A stretch of 64,000 bases of DNA from positions 62,001 to 126,000 of the IMG/VR virus record IMGVR_UViG_3300025154_000052. One strand, 5' to 3'. Below the pieces are notes generated by a model that was given only the letters and a program-made list of their open reading frames with translations, did no database searches and had not been told where the DNA came from. Below are positions 2,035-54,297 of the stretch, piece after piece. Origin of the DNA: a virus. The position numbers and the translations under genes were made by a program. The stretch's first letter is position 1; each line of letters opens with the position of its first letter.

Positions 2035-2396
2035 TTTTCCTCCCGGGTCGATTCGATCCGATCACAGGTTCGGCAGAGCGCCAGCCCGTCATAGCGCTCA
2101 TGAGTCTTGACCGTACTGTCCACATTGAGCGGGACGGTACGAGCCGTGATGGGACGGTTACAACGAGGGCAATGATCGTTGGGTACCGGGCCCACCCAGC
2201 GACAGCCGATGAAGTCCATGTAGATGGGGACGACGGCCTGGAGCGCATCGTCCATGGGCTCACCCGGGCACTCAGTAGGCAGACTGAAGTCCTCCAGCCC
2301 GTCACACACCCTGCAATGGTGGACGTGCCCATCACAGTACGGGCAGTTCCCGGGACTGCAACACTGGCCCTCACATTTGTGCCAAATGTGGTTCAC
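2031..2396 (-). CDS. cysteine-rich zinc-binding protein, unknown function
   Basis: The 121-residue protein carries many CxxC and CxxxxC motifs (KCEGQCC, NCPYCDGHVHHCRVC, HCPRCNRP, LCRTCDR), enough for at least two zinc sites. I use the GTG at 2396 because it overlaps the phosphatase stop as GTGA; the frame could be extended to 2444 but that would run inside the phosphatase gene. I do not recognise the family. It belongs to the PP2C/Mom leftward unit. Confidence 0.7.
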   Translation of the reverse strand: MNHIWHKCEGQCCSPGNCPYCDGHVHHCRVCDGLEDFSLPTECPGEPMDDALQAVVPIYMDFIGCRWVGPVPNDHCPRCNRPITARTVPLNVDSTVKTHERYDGLALCRTCDRIESTREEK

Positions 2397-3208
2397 GCCA
2401 GCACCTCCACCACGATAAGTGTGAGATTGTCGGAGGGGTCGCATTCGGCCAGCCGCATGCTGGAATCAGCAACCGAATGACCTACCAGTCGACGACCGAT
2501 CTCGTCGTCGTCGAGTTTCCCATGCAGTCCATCGCTGCACAGAAGGAACCGGTCGTGTGGCTCAACGCGGATAGTGGAGACGTCGGGAATCCCGTCGCCA
2601 CTACTGCAACCGATGAGCCGCCCGAGCCGGTGCCCGATGCCGTGGTCGATGGTCAGCCTGTGCAGTTTTCCCCACCGCGCCAGGTAGCAGCGGGAGTCCC
2701 CGATGTGAGCGATAGTGGCCTTGTAGCGACCGTCAAAAAGCGACAGTCGCAGTGCTACGGCTGTCGTGCCCGGTGCCTTGGACCATCCCTCACGGGGAAT
2801 CGCCTTGACCGCTTCGTTTGCCCGGCGAAAACCGAACCGCAGATTGGGCGCGCCGGAGATATGCTCGACCGCTACTCGGGAAGCCTCCTCCCCTTTGGCA
2901 TGTCCTCCCATCCCATCGGCCACAATGAATAAGCCGGTAGTACTGTCAGTGTGAAAAGCGTCTTCCTGGTTCTCACGCTCGCCAAGAAGATTCTCCGTCG
3001 ACACATCCAGGAACATAGTGTTGGGATTTCTCAGGGCGTAGACATTGTCCTTCACCCCGAGAACTCCCTGCGATGCCAGGGAGTCGATGGTCTTGGTGTC
3101 GACCCAGCACCGCTCGTCTGGGCTAGAGAGAAGGACAAGGTTTGCCTTGACCAGCCGACAAGGTCCGCGTCGGATCAACTGCAAGGCCGCGGCAGCATTC
3201 GAGTGCAT
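2393..3208 (-). CDS. PP2C-type Ser/Thr protein phosphatase
   Basis: The 271-residue protein shows the ordered motifs of metal-dependent PPM/PP2C phosphatases: GERENQEDAF (about residue 76), FIVADGMGGHAKGEEAS (94-110, metal-binding Asp98), GTTAV, AHIGDSRCYL, FLLCSDGLHGKL and DPSDNLTLIVVEV at the C terminus. It would remove phosphate from serine or threonine in the host cytoplasm, perhaps reversing a host or prophage kinase signal. The first 65 residues precede the catalytic domain and resemble a small helical regulatory region. It is the first gene of the leftward unit, 28 bp from the -10 at 3236, with the ribosome site GGAGGTG just before its ATG. Confidence 0.9.
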   Translation of the reverse strand: MHSNAAAALQLIRRGPCRLVKANLVLLSSPDERCWVDTKTIDSLASQGVLGVKDNVYALRNPNTMFLDVSTENLLGERENQEDAFHTDSTTGLFIVADGMGGHAKGEEASRVAVEHISGAPNLRFGFRRANEAVKAIPREGWSKAPGTTAVALRLSLFDGRYKATIAHIGDSRCYLARWGKLHRLTIDHGIGHRLGRLIGCSSGDGIPDVSTIRVEPHDRFLLCSDGLHGKLDDDEIGRRLVGHSVADSSMRLAECDPSDNLTLIVVEVLA

Positions 3209-3287: not shown

Positions 3288-3734
3288 TCAGAACAAGGAA
3301 AGTTGAACGACAGCAATAGATGGTAGTGCGGGCATGGGAAGAGGAAGGATGTTCGGTGACTGCTCTTGTCCAGATATATGCTGCTGGCACAAATCCCACG
3401 ATTCGTCATCCAAGGGAATTACGCCAGCCAGCGCAGCGACACAGATGAAGTGGGCCACCGCGCGTTGTGACTCCATGCCTGGCATTCGTCGTGACATGAT
3501 AACGCAACATGACCCTCGCCCTGGGGTTACCTGCCTGACGACTTCCCCTCCTTCAGAAGCCGCTATCACGTCCAGCGCCTCCCAGGAGACGAGAGGTTGC
3601 ACCGTGTTCCATCTGTCGATTGCCTCCCGTGCCCTGTCTCGGCTTCTGCCACTGTAAAGGATGGGGCGATAATTCTCGTTCGGGTACGCTCCGAAGTGTC
3701 CCGGCGCCAGTTCATGAATGATGTAGTCGCTCAT
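3288..3734 (-). CDS. hypothetical protein ending in a clamp-binding-like peptide
   Basis: A 148-residue protein of unknown family. Its N-terminal half (GHFGAYPNENYRPILYSGRSRDRAREAID is the start region) is soluble and the last five residues are QLSLF, the exact consensus of peptides that dock on the bacterial replication sliding clamp. The gene is the last of the DndC/radical-SAM leftward unit, and its 3' end is 11 bp from the promoter of the next unit. Confidence 0.7.
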   Translation of the reverse strand: MSDYIIHELAPGHFGAYPNENYRPILYSGRSRDRAREAIDRWNTVQPLVSWEALDVIAASEGGEVVRQVTPGRGSCCVIMSRRMPGMESQRAVAHFICVAALAGVIPLDDESWDLCQQHISGQEQSPNILPLPMPALPSIAVVQLSLF

Positions 3735-3736
3735 CG

Positions 3737-3922
3737 CTAATCCTTGATCTTGGGCACTCGCTCAGCGGGGAGTGTATCGGCTGGGATGATGGCCATGCGC
3801 TCGATGGAGACGTAGTTGTCACCCTGGCTGCTGTTGTGGATCAACTCGTACAGCGCCCGTGAGAGCGACATCCGGCAGGCGTGATCTGGCCGGTTGTACC
3901 ACTCGCCATGCCTGAACCACAT
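3737..3922 (-). CDS. small hypothetical protein, downstream part of an interrupted frame
   Basis: A 61-codon frame (MWFRHGEWYNRPDHACRM start) that ends 2 bp before the next ATG. It continues in the same reading frame from a 35-codon frame upstream, the two being separated by one TGA (3944-3946) inside a perfect hairpin. It may be translated alone from ATG 3922, although no ribosome site is obvious, or be the second half of a single 103-codon gene. Confidence 0.45.
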   Translation of the reverse strand: MWFRHGEWYNRPDHACRMSLSRALYELIHNSSQGDNYVSIERMAIIPADTLPAERVPKIKD

Positions 3923-3940
3923 GTTGAGTAGTCCATTCGT

Positions 3941-3999
3941 CGCTCAAGAAGGCCGATACTTCTCCTGTGAAGCCGGCGCAGTATCGGCCTTCTTGAGCG
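3941..3999. repeat. perfect 20-bp inverted repeat (long hairpin)
   Basis: Arms 3941-3960 and 3980-3999 are perfectly complementary over 20 bp, with a 19-base loop. There is no T-run on either side, so it is not an ordinary intrinsic terminator. On the transcribed minus strand the 3' arm holds the in-frame TGA that ends the small frame 3944-4051. It could be an mRNA processing or stability element, or a protein-binding dyad. Confidence 0.85.
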
Positions 4000-4051
4000 C
4001 TACCAGTGCTGCTTCAGCGGTTTGGAACTGGATGATCTCACGCCTCTTCAT
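3944..4051 (-). CDS. small frame overlapping the end of dndC
   Basis: The frame has 35 codons. Its ATG at 4051 overlaps the last codons of the DndC gene, and it reads MKRREIIQFQTAEAALVALK and on to a TGA inside the hairpin 3941-3999. The coupling and composition look genuine, but its shortness and the in-frame continuation into 3737-3922 leave open that this is the first half of a broken or recoded gene. Confidence 0.4.
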   Translation of the reverse strand: MKRREIIQFQTAEAALVALKKADTAPASQEKYRPS

Positions 4052-5549
4052 ACTCCTCAACCTCGTGAATGTTTGTGCCGAGCAGACCCAGTTGGGCCTG
4101 CTCGCGAATCTGGTTCACCTCTCTCAGATACGCGAGTGCGTCTTCTTCGTTCACGTACTTGGTGCGCACGAGTACGTTCTCAAGTGCGTCATACAGGCCC
4201 GCACGTCGGACGGAAGTTCTGTACGACGCTTCAACGTGAAGCAGGTTCCGAATTCGCTCGTACTCCATGGGGTCGCTGCAGCACTCCTTGAGAAGCCCCA
4301 GCGCGTCTTTCTCAAAAGGAATGTCTACAGGTCCGAGAATGTCTCGGTCTGGATAGGGATGTCCAATCTCTTGCTCGTAGATACCGGGTAGGAGGTCTTC
4401 TATCTCGTGTTTGTCGAGCACCCAGATACGGCGGATTTCCCGAAGTTCATCCATGGAGATCAACTCGAGCCGTTCGCCGGCCGGTGCGTATTCGCTCACC
4501 TCGCGTTGAGTGCGCAGGAGTTTCCGTAGCCAGTCGGCTCGAGCCTGTTGAGTATATGGACCGGGGATCGTTCGGTCGTGGAAGAGTTGCACGCGGCCAT
4601 TCATGCGCCTGAAGTCGCGCAGATGGCGATCCTTCTGCATGGCCAGATCGTCACGCAAGCCAAGCAGTGGTTCCATCCACTCCTTTTCCGTGTCGTGCTG
4701 GATCATGGCAGCCATCGACTTGTCTTTTTCGACCAGCGTGCAGACCCAGCACCCGAACCGGCTCGAGCCGCATGACGGCGTTCCCGTATCGACTACCAGT
4801 GGACACTCTCCGGAGTCAGATCCCGCCGCGTACATCCTGAACAGTGCCCGGTTGTGCCACCCCCACGGGTTCGGCACCTGGAAGAGGAACGTCCACACAT
4901 CGTCGTTAGACCAGTCCTCGATGGGCGAGTAGACCCATGAGCCGGGTAGCGACTTGTTCGGGCTCAGGCGGTCACGTATACGCCCTTTCTCGGCTGCCTC
5001 CATGGTACGCCGGCGACTCGCACTCTCAGCCTTGCGAGTACCCAGGCACAGGATGGCCTCACCATGACGGCTGACGACGTTGGTGATGAACTTGTTGGAT
5101 GGCTTGATCTTCAGCCGTTCGGTACACCAGCGCATACCGGGCATGCGAGGGGAGCAATAGCCCTTGCCGATCAGGCATACCCAGAAGCTATCAAGCAGCT
5201 CCGGAGTGAGTTTGTGTGGCTTGATGGGCATTCCCTGCTTGTCAGCAGCAACGCCCATCTGCTCGAGCGACTTACCAACCCAGGCAGCGACCACCGGGTT
5301 CTCGACAAGCGTGTCTGTGCTGATGACGTGGACTGGCTTCTTGATGTCGGCTCGAGGCAGTTTGGCCAGCGCCGTCCAGACGAGTTGTAGTGTCGCAGAG
5401 CTGTCCTTGCCTCCGCTATAGCCCAACACCCATGGAGTGCCATCCTCGAGGTACAGGGTGCGGATCTCCTCCTGCAGGTCAGCGATGGACTGGGCCAGGC
5501 TTACCTTGTCAGACGATTCTTCTTGTTGCAGAAGCGATAACTGACTCAT
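4038..5549 (-). CDS. dndC: DndC-like DNA phosphorothioation sulfurtransferase
   Basis: A 503-residue protein of normal DndC length. It has the PP-loop VLGYSGGKDSSATLQLVW near residue 45, then ISTDTLVENPVV, FWVCLIGKGYCSPR, RWCTERLKIKP, LGTRKAESASRR, SPIEDWSNDDVW, NPWG and the cysteine cluster PSCGSSRFGCWVC, followed by RIWVLDKHEIEDLLP. DndC activates the DNA backbone with ATP and helps insert sulfur in place of a non-bridging oxygen. DndA, DndD, DndE and DndB are not in this window, so it is an orphan here. ATG 5549 overlaps the upstream TGA as ATGA; an ATG at 5558 is in frame. Residues 3-7 are QLSLL, a clamp-binding-like peptide. Confidence 0.88.
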   Translation of the reverse strand: MSQLSLLQQEESSDKVSLAQSIADLQEEIRTLYLEDGTPWVLGYSGGKDSSATLQLVWTALAKLPRADIKKPVHVISTDTLVENPVVAAWVGKSLEQMGVAADKQGMPIKPHKLTPELLDSFWVCLIGKGYCSPRMPGMRWCTERLKIKPSNKFITNVVSRHGEAILCLGTRKAESASRRRTMEAAEKGRIRDRLSPNKSLPGSWVYSPIEDWSNDDVWTFLFQVPNPWGWHNRALFRMYAAGSDSGECPLVVDTGTPSCGSSRFGCWVCTLVEKDKSMAAMIQHDTEKEWMEPLLGLRDDLAMQKDRHLRDFRRMNGRVQLFHDRTIPGPYTQQARADWLRKLLRTQREVSEYAPAGERLELISMDELREIRRIWVLDKHEIEDLLPGIYEQEIGHPYPDRDILGPVDIPFEKDALGLLKECCSDPMEYERIRNLLHVEASYRTSVRRAGLYDALENVLVRTKYVNEEDALAYLREVNQIREQAQLGLLGTNIHEVEEYEEA

Positions 5550-5839
5550 CGATCCCATGGCTCCGAGCCAGCCCGCTCCGCGAGTTCTGCCTGGTAGGTT
5601 CCGTATACGTCCCGGCTCACCATGATATAGGCGCGGAGTATGTCGACAATGGCCACCTGTGCTTCTGTAAGGCCTGTCAGAGCGTTATCAACTAATATCT
5701 CGATCAATGTGTCGGGTGTTATGCTCAGCGACGACGCCAGGGCGTCTAGGTGCGCTTTGAGCCGCGCTACGAACGCGGTCTCGAGCGGCTCCAGTGATTG
5801 GGATGGCTTGTTGCGAATGTGGTGGAGTAGAGTGGTCAC
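5546..5839 (-). CDS. hypothetical protein in the DndC operon
   Basis: A 97-residue, mostly helical and acidic protein (LETAFVARLKAHLDALASSL, then LTEAQVAIVDILRAYI). The GTG at 5839 overlaps the radical-SAM stop as GTGA, and its own stop overlaps the dndC ATG, so the three genes are translationally coupled. No family is recognised; it could be a small partner of DndC or of the radical-SAM protein. Confidence 0.7.
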   Translation of the reverse strand: MTTLLHHIRNKPSQSLEPLETAFVARLKAHLDALASSLSITPDTLIEILVDNALTGLTEAQVAIVDILRAYIMVSRDVYGTYQAELAERAGSEPWDR

Positions 5840-6666
5840 GGGTTGGTTCCTTTCGCCAGATTCGCACTGATGGCCGGTCGTGCCCAGAGTCGTTGAAAAC
5901 GAGCCCATTCTTGAGAGACGTTCCCATGTCTGTTACGCCAAACCATGGCCATGGGCCAGAAGCCTGCGTCAACCACCTGTCTCATCCGTTTCTCGGCCGC
6001 TTCAAACGTATCCTTGGCATACCCGCAGAGCACGTATGCTCTCAGGTGATGATTGTTGCGACCATAGCCCGCCTGTTGGAACAGACGACCAGCATCCACC
6101 AATGGCTCGAGGTCGTCGGGCGTGTCGTAAGCGAAGAAGACAGATTCGGGAGCCAGCTTTCGGATCTCTTCCACATGCCAGGGCTGAAGTTTCGCAGCCT
6201 CGAGCCCGCCCGTAAACTCGGCACGGTGACCGACCCGCTTCTGTCGGTGAAGCATGGCGAACACCGCCCTGATGTGCTCCTCAGGGCATGCCAGTAGGTT
6301 GTCGTCGAGGATATTCCAGCCATCGGTGATGGCGAGTTCCCGTAGAGCGCCCTCTCGTTTTGGGACCGAACAGAACCAGCAGCGATTCGGGCAGCCGCGA
6401 GACGTGATGACGTAGCCTGGCTTGAGGTACATACCGGGTGTGAAGTTTCCGCCACGCTCACCAGTCGCTGGCCCACCTATTCTGACCGGTGCGACGTGCC
6501 GCCAGAGATTCTCGAGTCGCTCGGCCACCGGGAGATCCCAGATAAACGCCACGCTGATGTGAACCTCGTCGGCTTCGTCGAACAGGCCTGGCGGGCAATC
6601 GACGCGCACAAGGGCGTCATTCGGTGTGGCTGTGGTTCGTCTCGGGAAGAGTCGGATGATTTTCAT
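5836..6666 (-). CDS. radical SAM protein
   Basis: A 276-residue protein with the motif GCPNRCWFC (cysteines 92, 96 and 99), which holds the [4Fe-4S] cluster that cleaves S-adenosylmethionine in radical-SAM enzymes, inside GYVITSRGCPNRCWFC. Downstream, EFTGGLEA and the SVFFAYDTPDDLEPLV and LRAYVLCGY strands fit a partial TIM barrel. The substrate is unknown. Its operon mates are DndC and a mini PP-loop ATPase, so a role in sulfur or base modification of nucleic acid is a reasonable inference, not shown by sequence. Confidence 0.85.
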   Translation of the reverse strand: MKIIRLFPRRTTATPNDALVRVDCPPGLFDEADEVHISVAFIWDLPVAERLENLWRHVAPVRIGGPATGERGGNFTPGMYLKPGYVITSRGCPNRCWFCSVPKREGALRELAITDGWNILDDNLLACPEEHIRAVFAMLHRQKRVGHRAEFTGGLEAAKLQPWHVEEIRKLAPESVFFAYDTPDDLEPLVDAGRLFQQAGYGRNNHHLRAYVLCGYAKDTFEAAEKRMRQVVDAGFWPMAMVWRNRHGNVSQEWARFQRLWARPAISANLAKGTNP

Positions 6667-6681
6667 GCTACTGCACCGAGT

Positions 6682-7170
6682 TCAGCGACCTTCGCCGTCA
6701 ATCTTCGCCTTCCACTCCCACATCTCCATCTGCGTGGGCAGTGGAGCGAGTGGGCGAAGACGGGATCGAGTCGATGTGTAGTTCACGGCGTGCTGGACAC
6801 GTTCGAGAATGGTCAACTCCCAGCGGCGGTCAGACCGGCAGTCCTCGGGCTTGATGATGAGACAATCATCACTCTTTCGCTCGAGGATCGACCACGCATG
6901 CTGGTTGATGACCACGATGAGCGGGTCCTGCCACACCTCGCCCGTGAAGGTGAGCCCATCCATCCCGGCTTCAAAGAACGCGTAGCAGGGACGAGAATAG
7001 GACTTCGGTGGAGGCTCGGACCACGCCTTCTTCCCCTCCAGCAGATAGCCAAGCAGGCCACCTCGAGCGCTATGGCTGGCATCCATGGCAAAGAAGATGG
7101 GGTTGACTGGCTTGCCTTCAGCCTGCCGCACCATGAGCCACGTCTGGATCTTCTCGTACTCGGCGCTCAT
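6682..7170 (-). CDS. hypothetical protein
   Basis: A 162-residue soluble protein, unrecognised, with the segments NPIFFAMDASHSARGGLLGYLL and CYAFFEAGMDGLTFTGEVW. ATG 7170 overlaps the upstream stop (7167) as ATGA, which decides the start over a longer in-frame option at 7191. It precedes the radical-SAM gene by 15 bp. Confidence 0.65.
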   Translation of the reverse strand: MSAEYEKIQTWLMVRQAEGKPVNPIFFAMDASHSARGGLLGYLLEGKKAWSEPPPKSYSRPCYAFFEAGMDGLTFTGEVWQDPLIVVINQHAWSILERKSDDCLIIKPEDCRSDRRWELTILERVQHAVNYTSTRSRLRPLAPLPTQMEMWEWKAKIDGEGR

Positions 7171-7424
7171 TGCAGTCTCCGCACTGGACACCTTGGCTTG
7201 AGGTCACAGTTTCCGCACCGGCCCGTCTCGGCCAGTTCTTGACATGATGGCTCGCTGTCGTCGTCCATCAGCATGTCGATGTCAGGCACATCATAGCCAC
7301 GCTCCTTCAACGCCTGGGTGACGGCGTCCACACCCAGTATCTCGATGATCCGATTGGCGAGCTCCACGCGGGCATGGTGGGCCTCGAGCATGACGGCGAC
7401 TGACTCAGTGGTGATGGGCTTCAC
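7167..7424 (-). CDS. small cysteine-motif protein
   Basis: An 85-residue protein with a helical N terminus (MLEAHHARVELANRIIEILG) and a C-terminal four-cysteine cluster, SCQELAETGRCGNCDLKPRC, that could bind zinc or an iron-sulfur centre. Start and stop both overlap the neighbouring genes as ATGA. Function unknown. Confidence 0.7.
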   Translation of the reverse strand: MKPITTESVAVMLEAHHARVELANRIIEILGVDAVTQALKERGYDVPDIDMLMDDDSEPSCQELAETGRCGNCDLKPRCPVRRLQ

Positions 7425-7846
7425 TTCCCCTCCACGACGGCGAGGAAGGCTTCGGTCTCTGAGAAGCGTGAAAAATTGGCCCGGGTCGCTCGAGATATAA
7501 CCTCCTTCCGTCGCTGCTCTGGTGTGAACGTGCCGACGTAGATACGATCAATCTCTTCCTGGGAGAGAGCGCGCCAGTCAATGGAGCGTAGACGGTGGCG
7601 CACATCCTGTTCGTACTTTTCCTGTTGACGTATTCGCTCGAGCCGCTCCAGGTTTTCATGATAGCGCTTCGTCGTCGATTCATTGATCGGCTCGAGGGAT
7701 TCCCCTCCACCGTAGCGCCTACCCATCGACGTGAACCGTTTACCGTCTACGTACATCTGGCCCGATGGTGTGATGCGCTCGATAGTGCCGACACTCTCGG
7801 GGTCGCCATGACCCATGTAGACCTTGTCACCGACTTTCCAACTCAC
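7421..7846 (-). CDS. hypothetical protein
   Basis: A 141-residue protein. The first 45 residues (WKVGDKVYMG, GTIERITPSGQMYVDG) look like a small beta-barrel of the SH3/KOW type; the rest is charged and helical. Its ATG lies inside the last codons of the mini PP-loop gene. Function unknown. Confidence 0.65.
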   Translation of the reverse strand: MSWKVGDKVYMGHGDPESVGTIERITPSGQMYVDGKRFTSMGRRYGGGESLEPINESTTKRYHENLERLERIRQQEKYEQDVRHRLRSIDWRALSQEEIDRIYVGTFTPEQRRKEVISRATRANFSRFSETEAFLAVVEGK

Positions 7847-8138
7847 TAGTTTCCTCCTTTCTCATCTCCTGCCATCGCAACAACGTGTCGATGGCATCCT
7901 GAATGTCTCGGGTGATGTCTTTGCCCCCACCACGTCCACCGGCCACCAGCAACTTCTTGATGGCGTGCTGAAGGCATGGGTCAGTCACGCCGAGCAGAAG
8001 CAGCACGCAAGCAGTCGAGTCCTTACCACCGGAGAACGCGACGATGATCCGGTCGTAATCGTCAAACAACCACGGCGGCATTACTTCGGGCGGTTCTGTT
8101 ATCAGCGACAACTGCTTCGGCTTCACGTCAGCCCCCAT
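7827..8138 (-). CDS. mini PP-loop (PAPS-reductase-like) ATPase fragment
   Basis: A 103-residue protein. After QLSLI (residues 9-13) comes a PP-loop, DYDRIIVAFSGGKDSTAC, as in adenylylsulfate/PAPS reductase-like enzymes. The usual remainder of the domain is missing and is replaced by a glycine-rich stretch and a helix (RGGGKDITRDIQDAID). It is either a truncated enzyme or a nucleotide-binding subunit working with another protein such as the DndC of the same unit. ATG 8138 is preferred over the TTG at 8144 because transcription should begin near 8146, giving a leader of only about 8 bases. Confidence 0.7.
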   Translation of the reverse strand: MGADVKPKQLSLITEPPEVMPPWLFDDYDRIIVAFSGGKDSTACVLLLLGVTDPCLQHAIKKLLVAGGRGGGKDITRDIQDAIDTLLRWQEMRKEETSELESR

Positions 8139-8152
8139 ACACAACTGAGCTG

Positions 8153-8193
8153 AGTATAGCAGGCTGGTAGCAACAATTCAACGGGTATTTGAT
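8153..8193 (-). promoter_or_regulatory. promoter of the DndC/radical-SAM unit, leftward
   Basis: On the minus strand: an ATCAAATA element (8186-8193), four bases, TTGAAT (8176-8181), a 17-base spacer and TATACT (8153-8158). This is a diverged copy of the recurring module. Confidence 0.75.
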
Positions 8194-31835: not shown

Positions 31836-32698
31836 TCCACATCGGACTCGACACCGCCTCGAAATCTCGCGTGGTCGGGGAACTCTGCCAGCGCGAGGAT
31901 ATCAACCGCGTGGTTATCATCTCGACGATTGGCAGAGAGTTTCCCTGCGCTCACAGTCGCTACGAAGTGGTGACTTATGAACAAGTCATCCAATACGCTT
32001 ACTTCTATAGGCTTCTGCAGGAGATAGACAAACGGACGCTGGTTGTAGTCAACGAGTGCCTGCGGACGCAGAACCGGCACGACCTGACCTATAATTGCAT
32101 CCGCCACTTTTTGAACCAGGCCGGGCATGTACTGGTGTTCCAATACCTACCGCTGATCGACACCGCAGAGGACTTCAGTATCCTCTTCGACTTTGACACT
32201 CAGAGCCGGTGGAAGCGGTCGAAGTTCGCGGACCTGCCGCTCGAGGAAGCACGGCTGGAGGTGGCACCTCGACGGCTCGAGTTCAGCAACACCGACGTCC
32301 GCGTGTCGCCCTCGTTCCGTGCCCGCTACCTGGCCGAGAAGGAGCGGCTGTTCGCCAACCTGGGTGCCAGTGACCCCCACACGCTACCACGCAACCTGCA
32401 CCTGTTTACCGGCCGGCCCAAGTTGGGTGCTATGGATCCTTCGAGGCAGTACGTCTGTCGTAACGGGCGTTTCAACGAGCCCAGCCTGACCACCTATGAA
32501 AACGCCCAGCCCGGGCGGGAATACGCCATCTTCGAGTGGTGCCATCGATACATCGACTTCACCGACTTCCTTTGGACGACGGGCCAGGACCGATTTGATG
32601 TACTCAGCACGGACCTGCCGGTAGATCAGTGGTATCTGCAACGGTATACGGATTGGAGGGATAAGTTGGATGCCTGCTATTCAGCGATACAGCGATAA
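31832..32698 (+). CDS. hypothetical protein preceding the IbrA-IbrB cluster
   Basis: A 288-residue protein from GTG 31832, coupled to the GNAT stop. The N-terminal half alternates beta and alpha (RVVIISTIGREFP, TLVVVNECLRTQ, HVLVFQYLPLID), like a thymidine-kinase- or Rossmann-like nucleotide-binding core, but without a Walker A motif. Its end overlaps IbrA-1 by 29 bp, so it is probably part of the same system. Confidence 0.6.
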   Translation: MIHIGLDTASKSRVVGELCQREDINRVVIISTIGREFPCAHSRYEVVTYEQVIQYAYFYRLLQEIDKRTLVVVNECLRTQNRHDLTYNCIRHFLNQAGHVLVFQYLPLIDTAEDFSILFDFDTQSRWKRSKFADLPLEEARLEVAPRRLEFSNTDVRVSPSFRARYLAEKERLFANLGASDPHTLPRNLHLFTGRPKLGAMDPSRQYVCRNGRFNEPSLTTYENAQPGREYAIFEWCHRYIDFTDFLWTTGQDRFDVLSTDLPVDQWYLQRYTDWRDKLDACYSAIQR

Positions 32699-33797
32699 GA
32701 CGGTTTTGGAAGCTGCCAGGGAGCGCATCGCCTTTCTCTTCGATCACTACGAGACAATCCACGTTTCTATCAGTGGAGGGAAGGACTCGACGGTGCTTGC
32801 TCATCTGGCGCTGCTCGAGGCATATCGACGCGGGCGCAAGGTGGGCCTGTTCCTACTCGACGAGGAGGCCATGTACCAGAGTTCTGTGGACCAGGTCGAA
32901 TACCTGATGAGCCTGTTCCCGGAGAACTGTAATCGCCTATGGCTTCAGGTGCCGTTCTACCTGACCAATGCCACCAGTTTGACAGAGAGCCAGTTACAGG
33001 CATGGGAGCCAGGCAAACACAAGATCTGGATGCGTTCCAAAGGGGAGGGGAATATTAAGGCTCCTCCATGGGCTGGGCCTCCTAAATTCCGAACAGGTTA
33101 TTCCTGGCTGGATTTCTACGGCGTGATCGACAACTTCGAAGCCTGCTATGAGAACACAGTTTTTCTGGTCGGCCTACGAGCTGCTGGCGAGTCCCCCAAC
33201 CGGTGGCGCGCCGTCACCAAGAACCCGGTCACGGTGGCAGGTCAGGATGTCTACTGGGGCACTCAGAAGGGGCGAAATATCGCCTTCTACCCCATCTACG
33301 ACTGGAACTTCAGCGACGTGTGGAAGTACATTGCGATCAACGGATTGCGTTACTCCCGCGTCTATGACTGGCAGTTCAAGAAGGGATTCGGCATTTCAGA
33401 GATGCGCGTTTCGAGCCTCATTCACGAGCGCTCCTTCAAAAGTCTTGTAGAACTCCCGGAGTTTGAGCCGAAGACCTACGACCGGCTGTGCAAACGCATC
33501 AAGGGCATCCAGTTCGCTCAGGAGACCGGCAAGAACGCCAAGATGATGAAGTGTCGGAAGTTGCCGAAGAACTTCACATCCTGGCGCGTTTACCGGAACT
33601 TCCTGCTTGAAACCTACCCGGTAGCCGACCACAAGCCGACCTTCGAGCGGCGTTTTGCCCGACAACTAGATAACGAGTACGTGGCCAGGCAGCAGTGCCG
33701 ACAACTGGTACTCAACGACTACGAAAACAACCTTCATGTGGACAACAAGCCAGACCCACGTGAAGAGTTGATCGAATACTATCGGAGGGTGCTGTGA
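32670..33797 (+). CDS. IbrA-like PAPS-reductase/sulfurtransferase family protein, copy 1
   Basis: A 375-residue protein with PP-loop IHVSISGGKDSTVLAHLALL near residue 30, followed by FLLDEEAMYQSS, LVGLRAAGESPNRW, FYPIYDWNFSDVWKYI, RVSSLIHERSFKSL and FTSWRVYRNFLLETYP. This is the pattern of DUF3440 proteins such as E. coli IbrA, whose PP-loop activates a substrate with ATP. The actual reaction is not known. Its stop overlaps the ParB-like gene start, as in ibrAB operons. See copy 2 at 34297. Confidence 0.85.
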   Translation: MPAIQRYSDKTVLEAARERIAFLFDHYETIHVSISGGKDSTVLAHLALLEAYRRGRKVGLFLLDEEAMYQSSVDQVEYLMSLFPENCNRLWLQVPFYLTNATSLTESQLQAWEPGKHKIWMRSKGEGNIKAPPWAGPPKFRTGYSWLDFYGVIDNFEACYENTVFLVGLRAAGESPNRWRAVTKNPVTVAGQDVYWGTQKGRNIAFYPIYDWNFSDVWKYIAINGLRYSRVYDWQFKKGFGISEMRVSSLIHERSFKSLVELPEFEPKTYDRLCKRIKGIQFAQETGKNAKMMKCRKLPKNFTSWRVYRNFLLETYPVADHKPTFERRFARQLDNEYVARQQCRQLVLNDYENNLHVDNKPDPREELIEYYRRVL

Positions 33798-34300
33798 AGA
33801 TTCTCTTCCCGTGTCTCAATACCTTCATGGTGCCACGTGTCCGCGTCGTGGCTAACAACTGGAATCCCAACCACGTGAGTTCGGACAAGATGCGGCTACT
33901 CATGCAGTCCATCATCGATAATGGTTGGTGTTTCCCTATTGTGACGGTTCATGATTCGGACGAAGACGTTTATCGTGTGGTCGATGGCTTCCACCGTTGG
34001 ACGATTGCCGGCCCCGAATGGCTAGACTTGCCGGAGGTTCCGATCGTAGTCATCGCTGTGTCTGTTGCCCAGCGGATGGCCGCGACAGTCCAATTCAACA
34101 AGGCACGTGGGGTCCACCAGGTAGATCTTGACGCCGACCTGATCCGGGCGCTCATCGAACAGGGCATGAGCGAGGAAGAGATCTCTTTGCATCTCAGTAT
34201 CGAGATGGAAACCATCCACCGCTACAAGTCACTGACCGGAATAGCGGCTCTCTTTGCCAATGCCACATGGTCCACGGCATGGACCATGGAGGAGACGTGA
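33794..34300 (+). CDS. IbrB-like ParB-domain protein, copy 1
   Basis: A 168-residue protein. IDNGWCFPIVTVHD and VYRVVDGFHRWTIAG match the ParB/Srx nucleotide-binding fold (DGFHR motif), followed by FNKARGVHQVD and a helical C terminus (MSEEEISLHLSIEMETIHRY). ParB-fold proteins bind CTP or act as nucleases; IbrB is the obligate partner of IbrA. GTG start overlaps the IbrA-1 stop. Confidence 0.8.
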   Translation: MKILFPCLNTFMVPRVRVVANNWNPNHVSSDKMRLLMQSIIDNGWCFPIVTVHDSDEDVYRVVDGFHRWTIAGPEWLDLPEVPIVVIAVSVAQRMAATVQFNKARGVHQVDLDADLIRALIEQGMSEEEISLHLSIEMETIHRYKSLTGIAALFANATWSTAWTMEET

Positions 34301-35376
34301 TCCCGAATGGGTGCAAACTCTACCTACCCAAGAACGTTCTCGAGGCCGCTATTGAGCGTATAGCCTGGATATTCGACCATTACGAGAACGTCTGTGTCTC
34401 CGTCTCGGGAGGAAAGGATAGTTCCGTGCTGGTCGAACTGGCACGGCGTGAGGCCGAGAGACGTGGACGGGTGATTCACGTTTTCTTTCTCGACCAGGAA
34501 GTTGAGTACCGTTCCACGGTTGAAGTCATGCGGTACATCATGACTCGCCCGGCTGTAAAGGCACACTGGGTACAGGTCCCCATCCGAATGACGAACGCCA
34601 CATCCTATGAGGACGAGTTCTTGTATGCCTGGGGACCGGGTGAGGAATGGGTCAGGCCGAAGGAGCCCGACTCCATCCATGAACTCCCGGATGCACCAGA
34701 TCGATTCTACTCGTTCTTCGACTGGTGGGAAGCCCAGTGGCCTGAGAACACAGCGTGTCTTGTCGGTCTTCGGGCCGAAGAGAGTCTAAATCGGTTTGGC
34801 GCTGTGACCCGTCATCCTGCCATTCCAGGCATCAACTGGTCGTCTCCTGGCGGCGGGAAGAGCATTAAGTTCTACCCTCTCTACGACTGGACGTTCGAGG
34901 ACATCTGGACGTTCATCGGCAACGAGGGACCGGTCTACAACCGCGTCTATGACTGGATGTGGGCCAAGGGGCGAAACATCGGAGATCTTCGGGTCTCCAA
35001 CCTCATTCATGAGCGTGCGTTCAAGAGCCTGGCTGACCTTCAGGAGTTCGAGCCCGATACATACGATGCGCTCATTCGCAGGCTAAAGGGTGTGCACACA
35101 GCTGCTCTGTACAGTCGAGAGCAGATGGTGTTCAGCACGAAGAAACGGCCAGCGCAGTTCTCATCCTGGCGAGCGTACCGAGACTTTTTACTCGAGACGC
35201 TTCCGAACGAGAGACGACAACAATTTCTCGAGCGGTTCGGAAATCAACTCCAGAGCGAATCCGTGTTCCGGCAGCAGGTCCGCCAGCTCCTGCTGAACGA
35301 TTGGGAGAACAACATCCCGGTGGTCCAGCAGCCGGATCGGCCGAACCCATTACTGAAGTGGATGGACATCCTATGA
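34297..35376 (+). CDS. IbrA-like PAPS-reductase/sulfurtransferase family protein, copy 2
   Basis: A 359-residue paralogue of 32670-33797: VCVSVSGGKDSSVLVELARR, FFLDQEVEYRSTVEV, CLVGLRAEESLNRFGAVT, FYPLYDWTFEDIWTFIG, RVSNLIHERAFKSL and FSSWRAYRDFLLETLP align block by block. GTG 34297 with GGAGGAGAC overlaps the previous TGA; a longer start at 34267 is possible. The two copies are clearly diverged, so they may have different substrates. Confidence 0.85.
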   Translation: MIPNGCKLYLPKNVLEAAIERIAWIFDHYENVCVSVSGGKDSSVLVELARREAERRGRVIHVFFLDQEVEYRSTVEVMRYIMTRPAVKAHWVQVPIRMTNATSYEDEFLYAWGPGEEWVRPKEPDSIHELPDAPDRFYSFFDWWEAQWPENTACLVGLRAEESLNRFGAVTRHPAIPGINWSSPGGGKSIKFYPLYDWTFEDIWTFIGNEGPVYNRVYDWMWAKGRNIGDLRVSNLIHERAFKSLADLQEFEPDTYDALIRRLKGVHTAALYSREQMVFSTKKRPAQFSSWRAYRDFLLETLPNERRQQFLERFGNQLQSESVFRQQVRQLLLNDWENNIPVVQQPDRPNPLLKWMDIL

Positions 35377-35933
35377 GCCAGATCACATTCCCTTGTTGCC
35401 ATGTGCAGATGGTTACTGCTGTTAAGGTGGTATCCAACGACTACAACCCTAACAACGTGGCAACGCCAGAGATGGACCTGCTTGCCCTCTCCATCGAAGA
35501 GGATGGAGTTACTCAGCCCATCGTTGTTGTTTATGATCCGGTCCTGGATCTGTATGTGGTGGTGGATGGCTTCCACCGGTACACCATCCTGACAAAGAGG
35601 TTCAAGTGTCCAGAGATCCCGGTGGTGGTGATCGACAAGTCCATCAATGACCGCATGGCCTCCACCATTCGGCATAATCGAGCTCGTGGCAAGCACAAGG
35701 TAGACATGATGTCTGTCCTTGTCGAGAAGCTTCTCAAACTCGGCTGGAGCGACACCGACATCGCGAAGCAGTTGGGGATGGAGGCAGAGGAGGTGCTTCG
35801 GCTCAAGCAGATGACCGGGTTGGCGGGCCTGTTCAAGGGCCAGGGTTACAGCCGATCATGGACACGCCCGGAAGGGGCGCCGCTATTCCAGGACGAGCCC
35901 ACCAATGATGACGACCGGGAAGACTCCGAGTAG
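35373..35933 (+). CDS. IbrB-like ParB-domain protein, copy 2
   Basis: A 186-residue paralogue of the 33794 gene: DGVTQPIVVVYD, LYVVVDGFHRYTIL, IRHNRARGKHKVD, and LGWSDTDIAKQLGMEAEEVLRL. The acidic C-terminal tail (DEPTNDDDREDSE) is unique to this copy. ATGA overlap with IbrA-2 completes the second module. Confidence 0.8.
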   Translation: MSQITFPCCHVQMVTAVKVVSNDYNPNNVATPEMDLLALSIEEDGVTQPIVVVYDPVLDLYVVVDGFHRYTILTKRFKCPEIPVVVIDKSINDRMASTIRHNRARGKHKVDMMSVLVEKLLKLGWSDTDIAKQLGMEAEEVLRLKQMTGLAGLFKGQGYSRSWTRPEGAPLFQDEPTNDDDREDSE

Positions 35934-38732: not shown

Positions 38733-38983
38733 TGGATATGCAAGCGATTGTGGACGAGTTGCAGCGGGTGCTGGCGCTACTTGTGTCGATAGAGATGATC
38801 GCAGGTGACGGCAGGATGTCACCCGACTGGCGGCTGATCAGGATAGCGGACTTGGCGCGGAAGGTGGTGAGGGATGAGGTTTTACCTGGGGACTCATCAG
38901 ACGGGATGGCTGTTCGACCAACGACTGATTGGTGTTCCCTTGTTCGTCAGCCGGAGAACACTGAATCCGTTGCGACTTTCTAA
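38732..38983 (+). CDS. small hypothetical protein overlapping dpdA-like gene
   Basis: An 83-codon frame. Residues 1-50 are a regular helical segment (MQAIVDELQRVLALLVSIEM), but the last 35 codons run inside the following gene, where composition looks non-coding. It may have lost its natural stop. Confidence 0.5.
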   Translation: MDMQAIVDELQRVLALLVSIEMIAGDGRMSPDWRLIRIADLARKVVRDEVLPGDSSDGMAVRPTTDWCSLVRQPENTESVATF

Positions 38984-39821
38984 ATTAAAAGGCCCACAAG
39001 CACCTGACTCCCGAGTCATCCGTATTGATATGCGCCTCGACGCATCGGGGCGATGGGTTCCCGTTGCAGTAGATGGGGACGGGTGCGTCTTGCCGGTCAA
39101 AAGTCGCAAGCCGTGGCGGCGTGCTGTCACTCGCTGGGCGCTGGACTCTGGTGGATTTCAGGAACTTGATCTGCACGGTAAATGGACGGTACCCGCTCGA
39201 CAGTACGTGGAAGAAGTCCGGATCTGTGCAGAGGAGATTGGCGGTCTTGACTGGGCTGCTATTCAGGACTGGATGTGTGAGCCTCGAATCAGAGAGAAGA
39301 CAGGTCTGTCCACGGAAGAACACCAGAAGCGGACGATTGCATCGTACCTTGAACTTTCCTCCATGGCACCAGATCTGCCGTGGGCACCGGTCATCCAAGG
39401 GTGGTCCCTCTGGTCGTATTTCCGACATCTTGAGATGTACGACAAGGCTGGAATCGATCTGAGGAAGTTCAAAGTGGTGGGTGTGGGAAGTGTTTGCCGG
39501 CGCCAGGGAACGTATGAAGCAGCCGGGATTATGGAGTCCCTTGCTCGAGAAGGCATACGTCTTCACGGCTTCGGCTTCAAGCAACTGGGCTTGAAGATGG
39601 CAGCGGCTTCTATGACTAGTGCCGACAGTCTGGCGTGGTCGTTCGAAGCTCGACGGGCAGCTATCGCCAACGGACAGGCGTTTACTCATCGGCTGTGCCA
39701 TGACCCAATAGCCACTCATCAGAACTGCGCGAATTGTCTTGAGTGGGCGCTGATGTGGCGGCGGTATGTGCTGGATTCAATTGAGCATGGTGAGAGCCAG
39801 GTTCAGATGGGGCTGTTCTAA
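38874..39821 (+). CDS. DpdA-like queuine/deazapurine transglycosylase family protein
   Basis: A 315-residue protein. FYLGTHQTGWLF, WALDSGGFQELDLHGKWT (DSGGFQ at 91-96), GGLDWAAIQDWMCEP, VIQGWSLWSYFRHLEMYDKA, VVGVGSVCRRQGTYE and LHGFGFKQLGLKM match phage proteins related to tRNA-guanine transglycosylase, of the type named DpdA, which swap guanine in DNA for a 7-deazaguanine. The deazaguanine synthesis genes (FolE, QueC/D/E) are not recognised in this window, so precursor supply is open. It ends QVQMGLF, another clamp-binding-like peptide. Confidence 0.8.
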   Translation: MRFYLGTHQTGWLFDQRLIGVPLFVSRRTLNPLRLSKLKGPQAPDSRVIRIDMRLDASGRWVPVAVDGDGCVLPVKSRKPWRRAVTRWALDSGGFQELDLHGKWTVPARQYVEEVRICAEEIGGLDWAAIQDWMCEPRIREKTGLSTEEHQKRTIASYLELSSMAPDLPWAPVIQGWSLWSYFRHLEMYDKAGIDLRKFKVVGVGSVCRRQGTYEAAGIMESLAREGIRLHGFGFKQLGLKMAAASMTSADSLAWSFEARRAAIANGQAFTHRLCHDPIATHQNCANCLEWALMWRRYVLDSIEHGESQVQMGLF

Positions 39822-46845: not shown

Positions 46846-47946
46846 TTACTTGGAGGGGAACTTCTCAGCCATGCGGTCCACGATCTCCTGCTTGTGCGCG
46901 TTTAACAGATGGGAGTAGCGCATGGTCATCTGGAGGGACTTGTGACCCAGAATAGCAGCCACGTCGGCGAGGCTGGCGCCGGACATGATCAGGTAGCTGG
47001 CGGCTGTGTGTCTGAGCGTGTGCCGGGTGACGCCCTGTAACCCAGTCTCGCGGATGCATGCGTCCCAAGCTCGCTTTAGGTCCAGGGGTTTACAGGTGTC
47101 GATCGTACTAGGGAAGAGCAGATCCACACCGAGTAGCCGGTGATGGTTCGTCCAGTCTCGGATTGCGCCCAGCGCAGGTGCAGCTAGGGGGACGTAGCGA
47201 GGTTCGCTGTTCTTAGTCGTCCCCTCGCGCAGTACCAGGTGACGGTGCTCGATATCCACCTGTTCCCAGCGCAGGCCCATGATCTCGGACAGCCGGCAAC
47301 CGGTGTAGATGAGCAGGACTGCTACCGGGTACATAGCCGGGTTCTGACGCTTCGCCGCCTCGAGTAACTGTGCCCGCTCGGAGTCGGTCAAAAACCGGGT
47401 TCGGCCTCGAGGTTCACGCTGCTTTCGGACCTTGACCATCGGGTTGGCATCCATCCATCCCCAGTCCTTGACTGCAGCGGTGAACGCGGTACTGAGTGCA
47501 GCCAGGTACCGGTTGACCGTGGCAGGTGTCCGGACCTGACCGCGGGGAGTCAGTCCTCGTGCAAGATCGTCTCGAGCCTGGGTAAGCATGGTGGCAGCGA
47601 CATCTGGCAACGCTACATCTCCCAGTTGCGCCTTCCACCAGAAGAGCTCTCGCTCAGTGTCCCGGGCGCTCTTCGGCCTATTGGGAAGCACCTCGTCTAT
47701 ATACCGGTCGATCAGGTCTGCCACGGTGCGACTCTGGGCCACAACATCGGGTCTGAGCCTCTCTTCTCTAATGACCGCCTTGGTCGTGTCCTGCCAGTAT
47801 TTAGCGTCCTGGAGGCGGTCGAAGGTTTTCACCTGGGGTGCATACCCCTTGATCCGGACTTCGACCCGGTAGACCTTCCGTCCGGTAGGGTAGACTCGCT
47901 CGATTATCCCCGGTGGGAGTCGCTTACCCTGCTTGGTAGTGCCCAT
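46846..47946 (-). CDS. int: tyrosine-family site-specific integrase
   Basis: A 366-residue protein of normal integrase length. N-terminal arm-binding region (GRKVYRVEVRIKG), SAM-like core-binding domain to about residue 180, then the catalytic set R218 (TGCRLSE), K245 (TTKNSE), H309-R312 (HTLRH), H335 (LGHKS) and nucleophile Y344 (RYSHL). It would recombine the attP at 48031-48080 with the host tRNA-Thr(CGT) gene. It is the last gene of the leftward mosaic and its start lies 44 bp from the attachment-site terminator. Confidence 0.93.
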   Translation of the reverse strand: MGTTKQGKRLPPGIIERVYPTGRKVYRVEVRIKGYAPQVKTFDRLQDAKYWQDTTKAVIREERLRPDVVAQSRTVADLIDRYIDEVLPNRPKSARDTERELFWWKAQLGDVALPDVAATMLTQARDDLARGLTPRGQVRTPATVNRYLAALSTAFTAAVKDWGWMDANPMVKVRKQREPRGRTRFLTDSERAQLLEAAKRQNPAMYPVAVLLIYTGCRLSEIMGLRWEQVDIEHRHLVLREGTTKNSEPRYVPLAAPALGAIRDWTNHHRLLGVDLLFPSTIDTCKPLDLKRAWDACIRETGLQGVTRHTLRHTAASYLIMSGASLADVAAILGHKSLQMTMRYSHLLNAHKQEIVDRMAEKFPSK

Positions 47947-53301: not shown

Positions 53302-54297
53302 ATGCACGGCATCGAGTATTTGAACCATCAGACTCACCCCGACACCGGCGCCGTACTCAAAGGCGAGACATGGAACGTCGGGTATGGATGCAGGGGATGC
53401 GAACAGGGTCGGAACTGCTGGGCGCTGGGGCAGATTCCGAGGCAAGCGAAGAACACCCCGGGCTCCCGGGAAACATGGGCACCGGACGGCGCAAACCGGA
53501 TTACATGGACCGGAGAATGGCTGAGTCTTCCCGAACGACTCCAACAACCCTTGTGCTGGCGAGATCCGCGCATGATCGCGGTGCAGTTCATGGGTGACAT
53601 CAGTCTGGCGCCGCCTGAATACTTCGCCGCCGTCATGGGAGTCATCGCCGCCACGCCTCAGCACATGTGCCTGATGCTGACCAAGTGGCCGGATGTGCTC
53701 CGGGAGCGGTTCGAGTGGATAGCACAAATCGGCGTACCTCTGGCGGACTGCTTTCGTCATCTCGACAACCATGGGATAGCAGCCACATTCCCTGACAATC
53801 CACGATGGCCCCTGCCCAACCTCATCCTCGGCGCCAGTGCATCGACGCAGGATCTGCTCGAGCGACGATGGCAGGACCTCGCACAGATCCCGGCTCGGTG
53901 GCGCGTCGTCAGCCTGACTCCGAAGGAGGGGTTAGATCTGTCGGTATGTCGCTATGAGATACCGACACCGAAGGATTTCCCGTGGGCGAGAGGTTGCTAT
54001 GGCTTCAAAAAGCCCAACCTTGTCATCTTCGACGGCTCGAACGGACGCGGGGCATGGCCCACGGATCTGTCGTGGGTCCGGTCGCTCCGGGACCAGTGCC
54101 GGGAGTTGGGCATCGGGTTCCGGCTGAAGCAGGTGGGGAGTAAGCCGTTCAGTGTTGCAGACCGGATATCAGCGCAGGGCGTCACGCTGCCCAAAGGGAA
54201 GCCCAACGGCTTCTACCGATTCCTGAATGACCCCGCCGGCGGCGACATGTCCGAGTGGCCCGATGACCTTCAGAACTGTCGTGAATGGCTGTGGTGA
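53302..54297 (+). CDS. phage Gp37/Gp68-like protein (DUF5131 type)
   Basis: A 331-residue protein. IEYLNHQTHPDTGAVLKGETWNVGYGCRGCEQGRNCWA region (CxxC...C near residue 31) and MIAVQFMGDISLAPP, MLTKWPDVLRERF and FRLKQVGSKP resemble the phage Gp37/Gp68 group, sometimes annotated DUF5131, which has an odd cysteine cluster and is often paired with phage nucleic-acid enzymes. The biochemical role is unknown. GAGGAGCATAACT precedes the ATG. Confidence 0.72.
   Translation: MHGIEYLNHQTHPDTGAVLKGETWNVGYGCRGCEQGRNCWALGQIPRQAKNTPGSRETWAPDGANRITWTGEWLSLPERLQQPLCWRDPRMIAVQFMGDISLAPPEYFAAVMGVIAATPQHMCLMLTKWPDVLRERFEWIAQIGVPLADCFRHLDNHGIAATFPDNPRWPLPNLILGASASTQDLLERRWQDLAQIPARWRVVSLTPKEGLDLSVCRYEIPTPKDFPWARGCYGFKKPNLVIFDGSNGRGAWPTDLSWVRSLRDQCRELGIGFRLKQVGSKPFSVADRISAQGVTLPKGKPNGFYRFLNDPAGGDMSEWPDDLQNCREWLW

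Follow-up and report, generated by a model that had tools for sequence, protein, structure and literature searches.

The window analysed here, 64,000 nucleotides in length, comprises positions 62001-126000 of a linear viral record of 137,577 bases. According to sequence and family matches the record encodes a tail sheath, which has merely 24-30% identity to those of known phages, a DnaG-type primase, a DnaB-type helicase, an integrase and DNA methyltransferases; on the basis of these matches, the source would be a tailed, contractile phage, possibly a temperate one. Seven tightly spaced genes occupy the minus strand from 8144 to 4038, and include those coding for a radical-SAM protein (rSAM) and for DndC (Table 1). 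At four gene joins a GTGA or ATGA combines the start codon of one gene with the stop codon of the preceding one, namely at g141-g85 (7424-7421), g85-g169 (7170-7167), rSAM-g97 (5839-5836) and g97-DndC (5549-5546), which makes co-translation of the overlapping genes of the module very likely.

Table 1. Features of the DndC locus and of two other regions of the phage (window coordinates).
Feature	Position	Strand	Basis or remark
Sigma-70-like promoter candidate, TTGAAT-17-TATACT, extended -10	8153..8181	-	directly upstream of the first gene
Hybrid ORF ("mini PP-loop"), 99-105 aa	7827..8144	-	family comparisons of both halves
141-aa protein (g141)	7421..7846	-	phrog_9662 match, 2.8e-6
85-aa protein (g85)	7167..7424	-	GTGA overlap with the preceding gene
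163-169-aa protein (g169)	6682..7191	-	start 7170, ATGA overlap with the preceding gene
Radical-SAM protein (rSAM), 276 aa, CPNRCWFC	5836..6666	-	profile, relatives, predicted structure
97-aa protein (g97)	5546..5839	-	GTG start inside the rSAM stop
DndC, 503-506 aa	4038..5558	-	start 5549 (ATGA overlap) or 5558
Perfect 20-bp hairpin, no T-tract	3944..4000	-	just after dndC; z -4.2
61-aa ORF	3737..3922	-	beyond the hairpin
148-aa ORF	3288..3734	-	beyond the hairpin
DpdA (7-deazaguanine DNA transglycosylase family)	38874..39821	+	232 bits
Integrase	46846..47946		

An earlier note on this DNA had counted seven or eight coupled genes, transcribed from a single module promoter. The seven genes stand as described, whereas the operon membership of the 61-aa and 148-aa ORFs is uncertain, because a 115-nt gap containing the 20-bp hairpin separates them from dndC; the inverted repeat has no second copy elsewhere in the window, and the hairpin is a possible transcript end or processing site. 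As for the promoter, the candidate site is well placed, but its pattern is weak, as the region contains three matches where chance alone would give 2.5. Directly downstream of the module lies a PP2C-type protein phosphatase gene (window 2393-3208, minus strand), which is unusual in a phage.

The first gene of the module had been taken for a mini PP-loop ATPase, a description that does not survive the comparison of its two halves. The probable start of the ORF is the GTG at 8126, which follows a GGGGG Shine-Dalgarno sequence. Residues ~1-46 match the opening part, with the PP-loop motif SGGKDS, of a family of phage PAPS reductases (e.g., L336, L340 and L342); residues 47-101 resemble a segment that recurs in 755 phage records, with up to 68% identity there and up to 83% in viral contigs. 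This segment is mostly the end of a ~75-aa phage protein, and the join lies in LLLLGVTDP, where both parent families look alike. A whole PP-loop (adenine nucleotide alpha hydrolase) domain has at least ~170 aa, of which the ORF holds only ~46 residues. Since its two parts come from unrelated families, the gene is a recombination hybrid containing one loop of the PP-loop fold, with no reason to be an ATPase. The ~75-aa protein itself (KHSHYFK..IDVYRVL..VTDPCLQHAIKKLLVAGGRG.., L263-L333) is very abundant, and is found both on its own and as a fused segment at one end or the other of unrelated proteins. For four of the other small genes of the locus, a search of 50,697 phage records returned no relatives. 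The g97 product, which is all-helical in a single-sequence model of low confidence (pLDDT 67), was considered for a DndE-like role; neither this model nor the search of phage records, where it has no relatives, supports such a role.

The radical-SAM protein scores 24.2 with the Pfam profile, below the gathering cut-off of 29.5; however, the assignment made in the earlier note holds, as the three cysteines of CPNRCWFC are invariant in 29 relatives and the predicted structure (pLDDT 90) combines the CxxxCxxC motif with the radical-SAM core fold. The nearest solved folds are AprD4 and MiaB, with a Foldseek TM-score of 0.56 and 13% identity, so that no solved relative is convincing by sequence and the substrate is not predictable at this distance. 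With these two enzymes, and with the phrog_9298-like radical-SAM phage family, the protein shares the cysteine motif, the core and a short N-terminal domain, which in the predicted structure recalls a truncated B12-binding fold. The protein is a member of a large family borne by phages. Among 112 relatives detected in viral contigs, 80 were kept, being 51-68% identical; neither DndC nor any other gene of the module occurs in their neighbourhoods (0/80), and DndC over the cut-off is absent from all 50 records holding relatives of the radical-SAM gene. Likewise, in a search run without a positive control, the radical-SAM protein had no match in the 13 other viral DndC records. No consistent partner emerged from the 80 loci, where the commonest neighbour, a methyltransferase, is found near 14. 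By these distributions it is a roaming phage accessory gene, which precedes dndC incidentally; neither it nor the hybrid PP-loop gene is a regular partner of DndC.

The proposal of a system formed with the partner genes, in which the radical-SAM protein, DndC and the mini PP-loop ATPase would carry out one new sulfur or radical modification, has only the operon coupling in its favour; the counts above, together with the hybrid nature of the third component, leave it most improbable. Indeed, the search of related phages for the same gene set returned radical-SAM relatives without DndC and DndC records without the radical-SAM gene, and it is this solitary occurrence, now seen from both sides, that the earlier note had itself named as telling against its reading. 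What had been observed is partly confirmed and the joint system is not supported; the solid case is the lone DndC on mobile elements.

The phage DndC reaches 597.5 bits with the curated TIGR03183 model (cut-off 290.4) and 578.6 bits with the PADLOC DndC model; over ~460 residues it is 56-61% identical to the DndC proteins of complete dndABCDE operons from Actinobacteria, Proteobacteria and others. The reading frame is intact and of full length; the PP-loop motif SGGKDS is present, as are the equivalents of all four cysteines that act as Fe-S ligands, C146, C273, C280 and C283 in E. coli B7A numbering (PMC12193691). According to the residue map of the same study, mutations of L458, E462 and R471 break DndC-DndD binding (PMC12193691), and these three residues are identical in the phage protein. 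The core of the phage protein retains 109/116 of the positions that are nearly invariant in operonic DndC, and no such position is changed in the middle (34/34) or in the DndD-contact region (5/5). The protein is a genuine DndC, solitary and intact, and it was probably captured from a bacterial dnd operon. It departs from its operonic counterparts in the loop that sets DNA specificity (PMC12193691): in a comparison of 105 sequences, none of the 104 others has the loop GYCSPRMPGMRW, which contains seven residues between GY and F/MRWC, while six are found in 102/105; standard loop length was treated as a variable feature and no bar to DndC membership.

The phage PAPS-reductase or IbrA-type proteins (phrog_424, phrog_2302, DUF3440), which are frequent in phages, belong to the same PP-loop superfamily, but their similarity to DndC is remote (96 bits for phrog_424 vs 597 for DndC). 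The window contains two tandem pairs of this kind at 32670-35933 (plus strand), each consisting of an IbrA-type PAPS-reductase-like gene (DUF3440) and a ParB/IbrB-like gene; counting DndC and leaving the hybrid aside, the phage therefore encodes three PP-loop proteins of full size.

The common view is that phosphorothioation requires DndC, DndD and DndE jointly. In the 137.6-kb record, which is linear and may be incomplete, the DndD and DndE profiles had no match and blastp found none of DndA, DndB, DndD and DndE; thus, the three proteins do not occur together here, neither beside dndC nor elsewhere in the record, and DndC is rightly called an orphan. One could regard it as a passenger, picked up by chance and unused by the phage, given that no close relative of this exact DndC lineage was found and that the adjoining hybrid ORF is evidence of recombination at the locus; this is very unlikely in view of the intact frame, of the retention of nearly invariant residues, of the tight coupling of dndC to the upstream genes, and of the repeated capture of DndC by other phages.

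Solitary DndC is found also in other viral records: neither DndD nor DndE was detected in L183, L185, L187 and L188 and in nine more contigs, counted by a DndC over the cut-off, several of these records being short fragments. The DndC of L258 is long (631 bits) and comes from a 189-kb viral record. In the same record, L350 (2889-3338, minus strand) is a 149-aa protein of ASCH-like appearance coupled to the solitary DndC. In the tree, L195, L238 and L258 are placed beside cyanobacterial operonic DndC (100/99), L221 and L185 belong to another clade, and the DndC of the window falls outside both groups, without a supported placement of its own; this topology points to at least three captures and rules out a monophyletic viral DndC. 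A sister pairing of the window protein with L183 had a support of 84 in a quick tree and did not resolve in a careful one. The L183 protein, the C-terminus of which looks frameshift-disrupted, was for this reason left out of the comparison of the DndD-contact region. Where relatives are close enough to measure, solitary DndC is under purifying selection, with a dN/dS of 0.14 between two close viral copies and of 0.15-0.31 between plasmid copies. No partner gene was found to recur among the viral DndC loci. A further viral contig, L182, carries a full dndABCDE operon with a DndC identical to that of Streptomyces regalis, and is probably a prophage or a host flank. One prophage survey mentions a lone DndC hit (PMC12429752); literature searches found no paper that treats the lone DndC genes of phages or plasmids as a class.

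The likeliest explanation, to which we assign a probability of about 0.4, is that the DndC of mobile elements borrows DndD, DndE and IscS from the host to mark phage DNA with sulfur. DndC would be made during infection, its Fe-S cluster could receive sulfur from host IscS or DndA, and the protein would then dock on DndD-DndE, where the host has both, thereby steering phosphorothioation onto the DNA of the phage. As DndC carries the DNA-specificity loop, which is altered in the phage, the marked sites may also change, and this could protect the DNA of the phage against restriction of the DndFGH or DndI type. Hosts able to use a supplied DndC exist, since DndC is absent in about 30% of the taxa bearing DndD/E (PMC10853773). 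An overdose of DndC was harmful to S. lividans and stopped its growth (PMC2653506), a result that fits an inhibitor equally well and hence counts against borrowing. As such an inhibitor, the phage DndC would act as an anti-Dnd decoy, displacing host DndC from DndD-DndE or draining the sulfur donor, and so disturbing self-marking or defence. The retained DndD-contact residues agree with this role and anti-Dnd proteins do evolve in phages (PMC12345140); however, the catalytic cysteines and the PP-loop motif are strictly kept, though a decoy does not need them, and this role is unlikely.

The borrowing of host machinery has also to be weighed against the lone DndC proteins of Streptomyces and Kitasatospora. 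Six of these (L097, L100, L137, L150, L153 and L156) form a monophyletic Streptomycetaceae clade (100/99), two copies of which are on plasmids (e.g., pZL1 and a Streptomyces xanthii plasmid). Like the phage protein, to which they are 56-59% identical, the plasmid-borne copies are intact, lone and on a mobile element, but they belong to a separate clade with neighbours of its own, none of which is common with the phage: the plasmid-clade dndC genes are accompanied by DUF3560, DUF6197, DUF6884 and HNH in a partly conserved neighbourhood, and some of the lone copies adjoin a DUF6884/YaaA-like gene and HNH. None of the four Streptomycetaceae whole genomes, partly drafts, that carry the plasmid-type lone DndC yielded a DndD over the cut-off, whereas the operonic controls all did (7/7), which counts against borrowing. 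Moreover, since the plasmid-clade proteins keep most of the DndD-contact positions in genomes where no DndD was found, conservation of these positions is no proof of a DndD partner.

These data bring in a close, if more doubtful, rival, namely that lone DndC acts without DndD and DndE, either alone or with an unrelated partner from the mobile element, in an alternative phosphorothioation route or in a different sulfur or adenylation reaction on nucleic acid. The monophyly, the constraint and the partly conserved neighbourhood of the plasmid clade agree with it, as do the short viral DndC-like proteins L187, L188, L219, L225 and L229, which lack the DndD-contact region, although some of them stop at contig ends. 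On the other hand, the viral loci have no recurrent partner, the four genomes include draft assemblies, and the plasmids may move into further hosts. Lone DndC now makes testable the question whether mobile elements hijack a host Dnd system by supplying its specificity subunit, as the borrowing explanation would have it; an activity of DndC of its own is likewise testable, as some constrained lone copies sit in genomes without detectable DndD.

The phage also codes for a DpdA, about 42% identical to mycobacteriophage DpdA, the gene of which is followed by that of an HTH-domain protein. In the L183 phage, which has the closest viral DndC found (57% identical), DpdA adjoins DndC, and its occurrence in both phages counts in favour of an action independent of DndD; apart from this, DnaB-like and Dam-like genes are all that the two phages have in common. 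DpdA is present in 2/14 DndC records and in 0/50 radical-SAM records, so that a general link between DpdA and DndC is suggestive only, and a functional one is not claimed because two cases are too few. It is rather unlikely, though conceivable, that DndC lineages of mobile elements need neither DndD nor DndE to modify nucleic acid and act in a way possibly tied, in this phage and in L183, to the 7-deazaguanine modification by DpdA. Further along the plus strand, at 53302-54297 of the window, lies a gene for a DUF5131 (phage Gp37/Gp68) protein with the cysteine-rich motif GCRGCEQGRNCWA.
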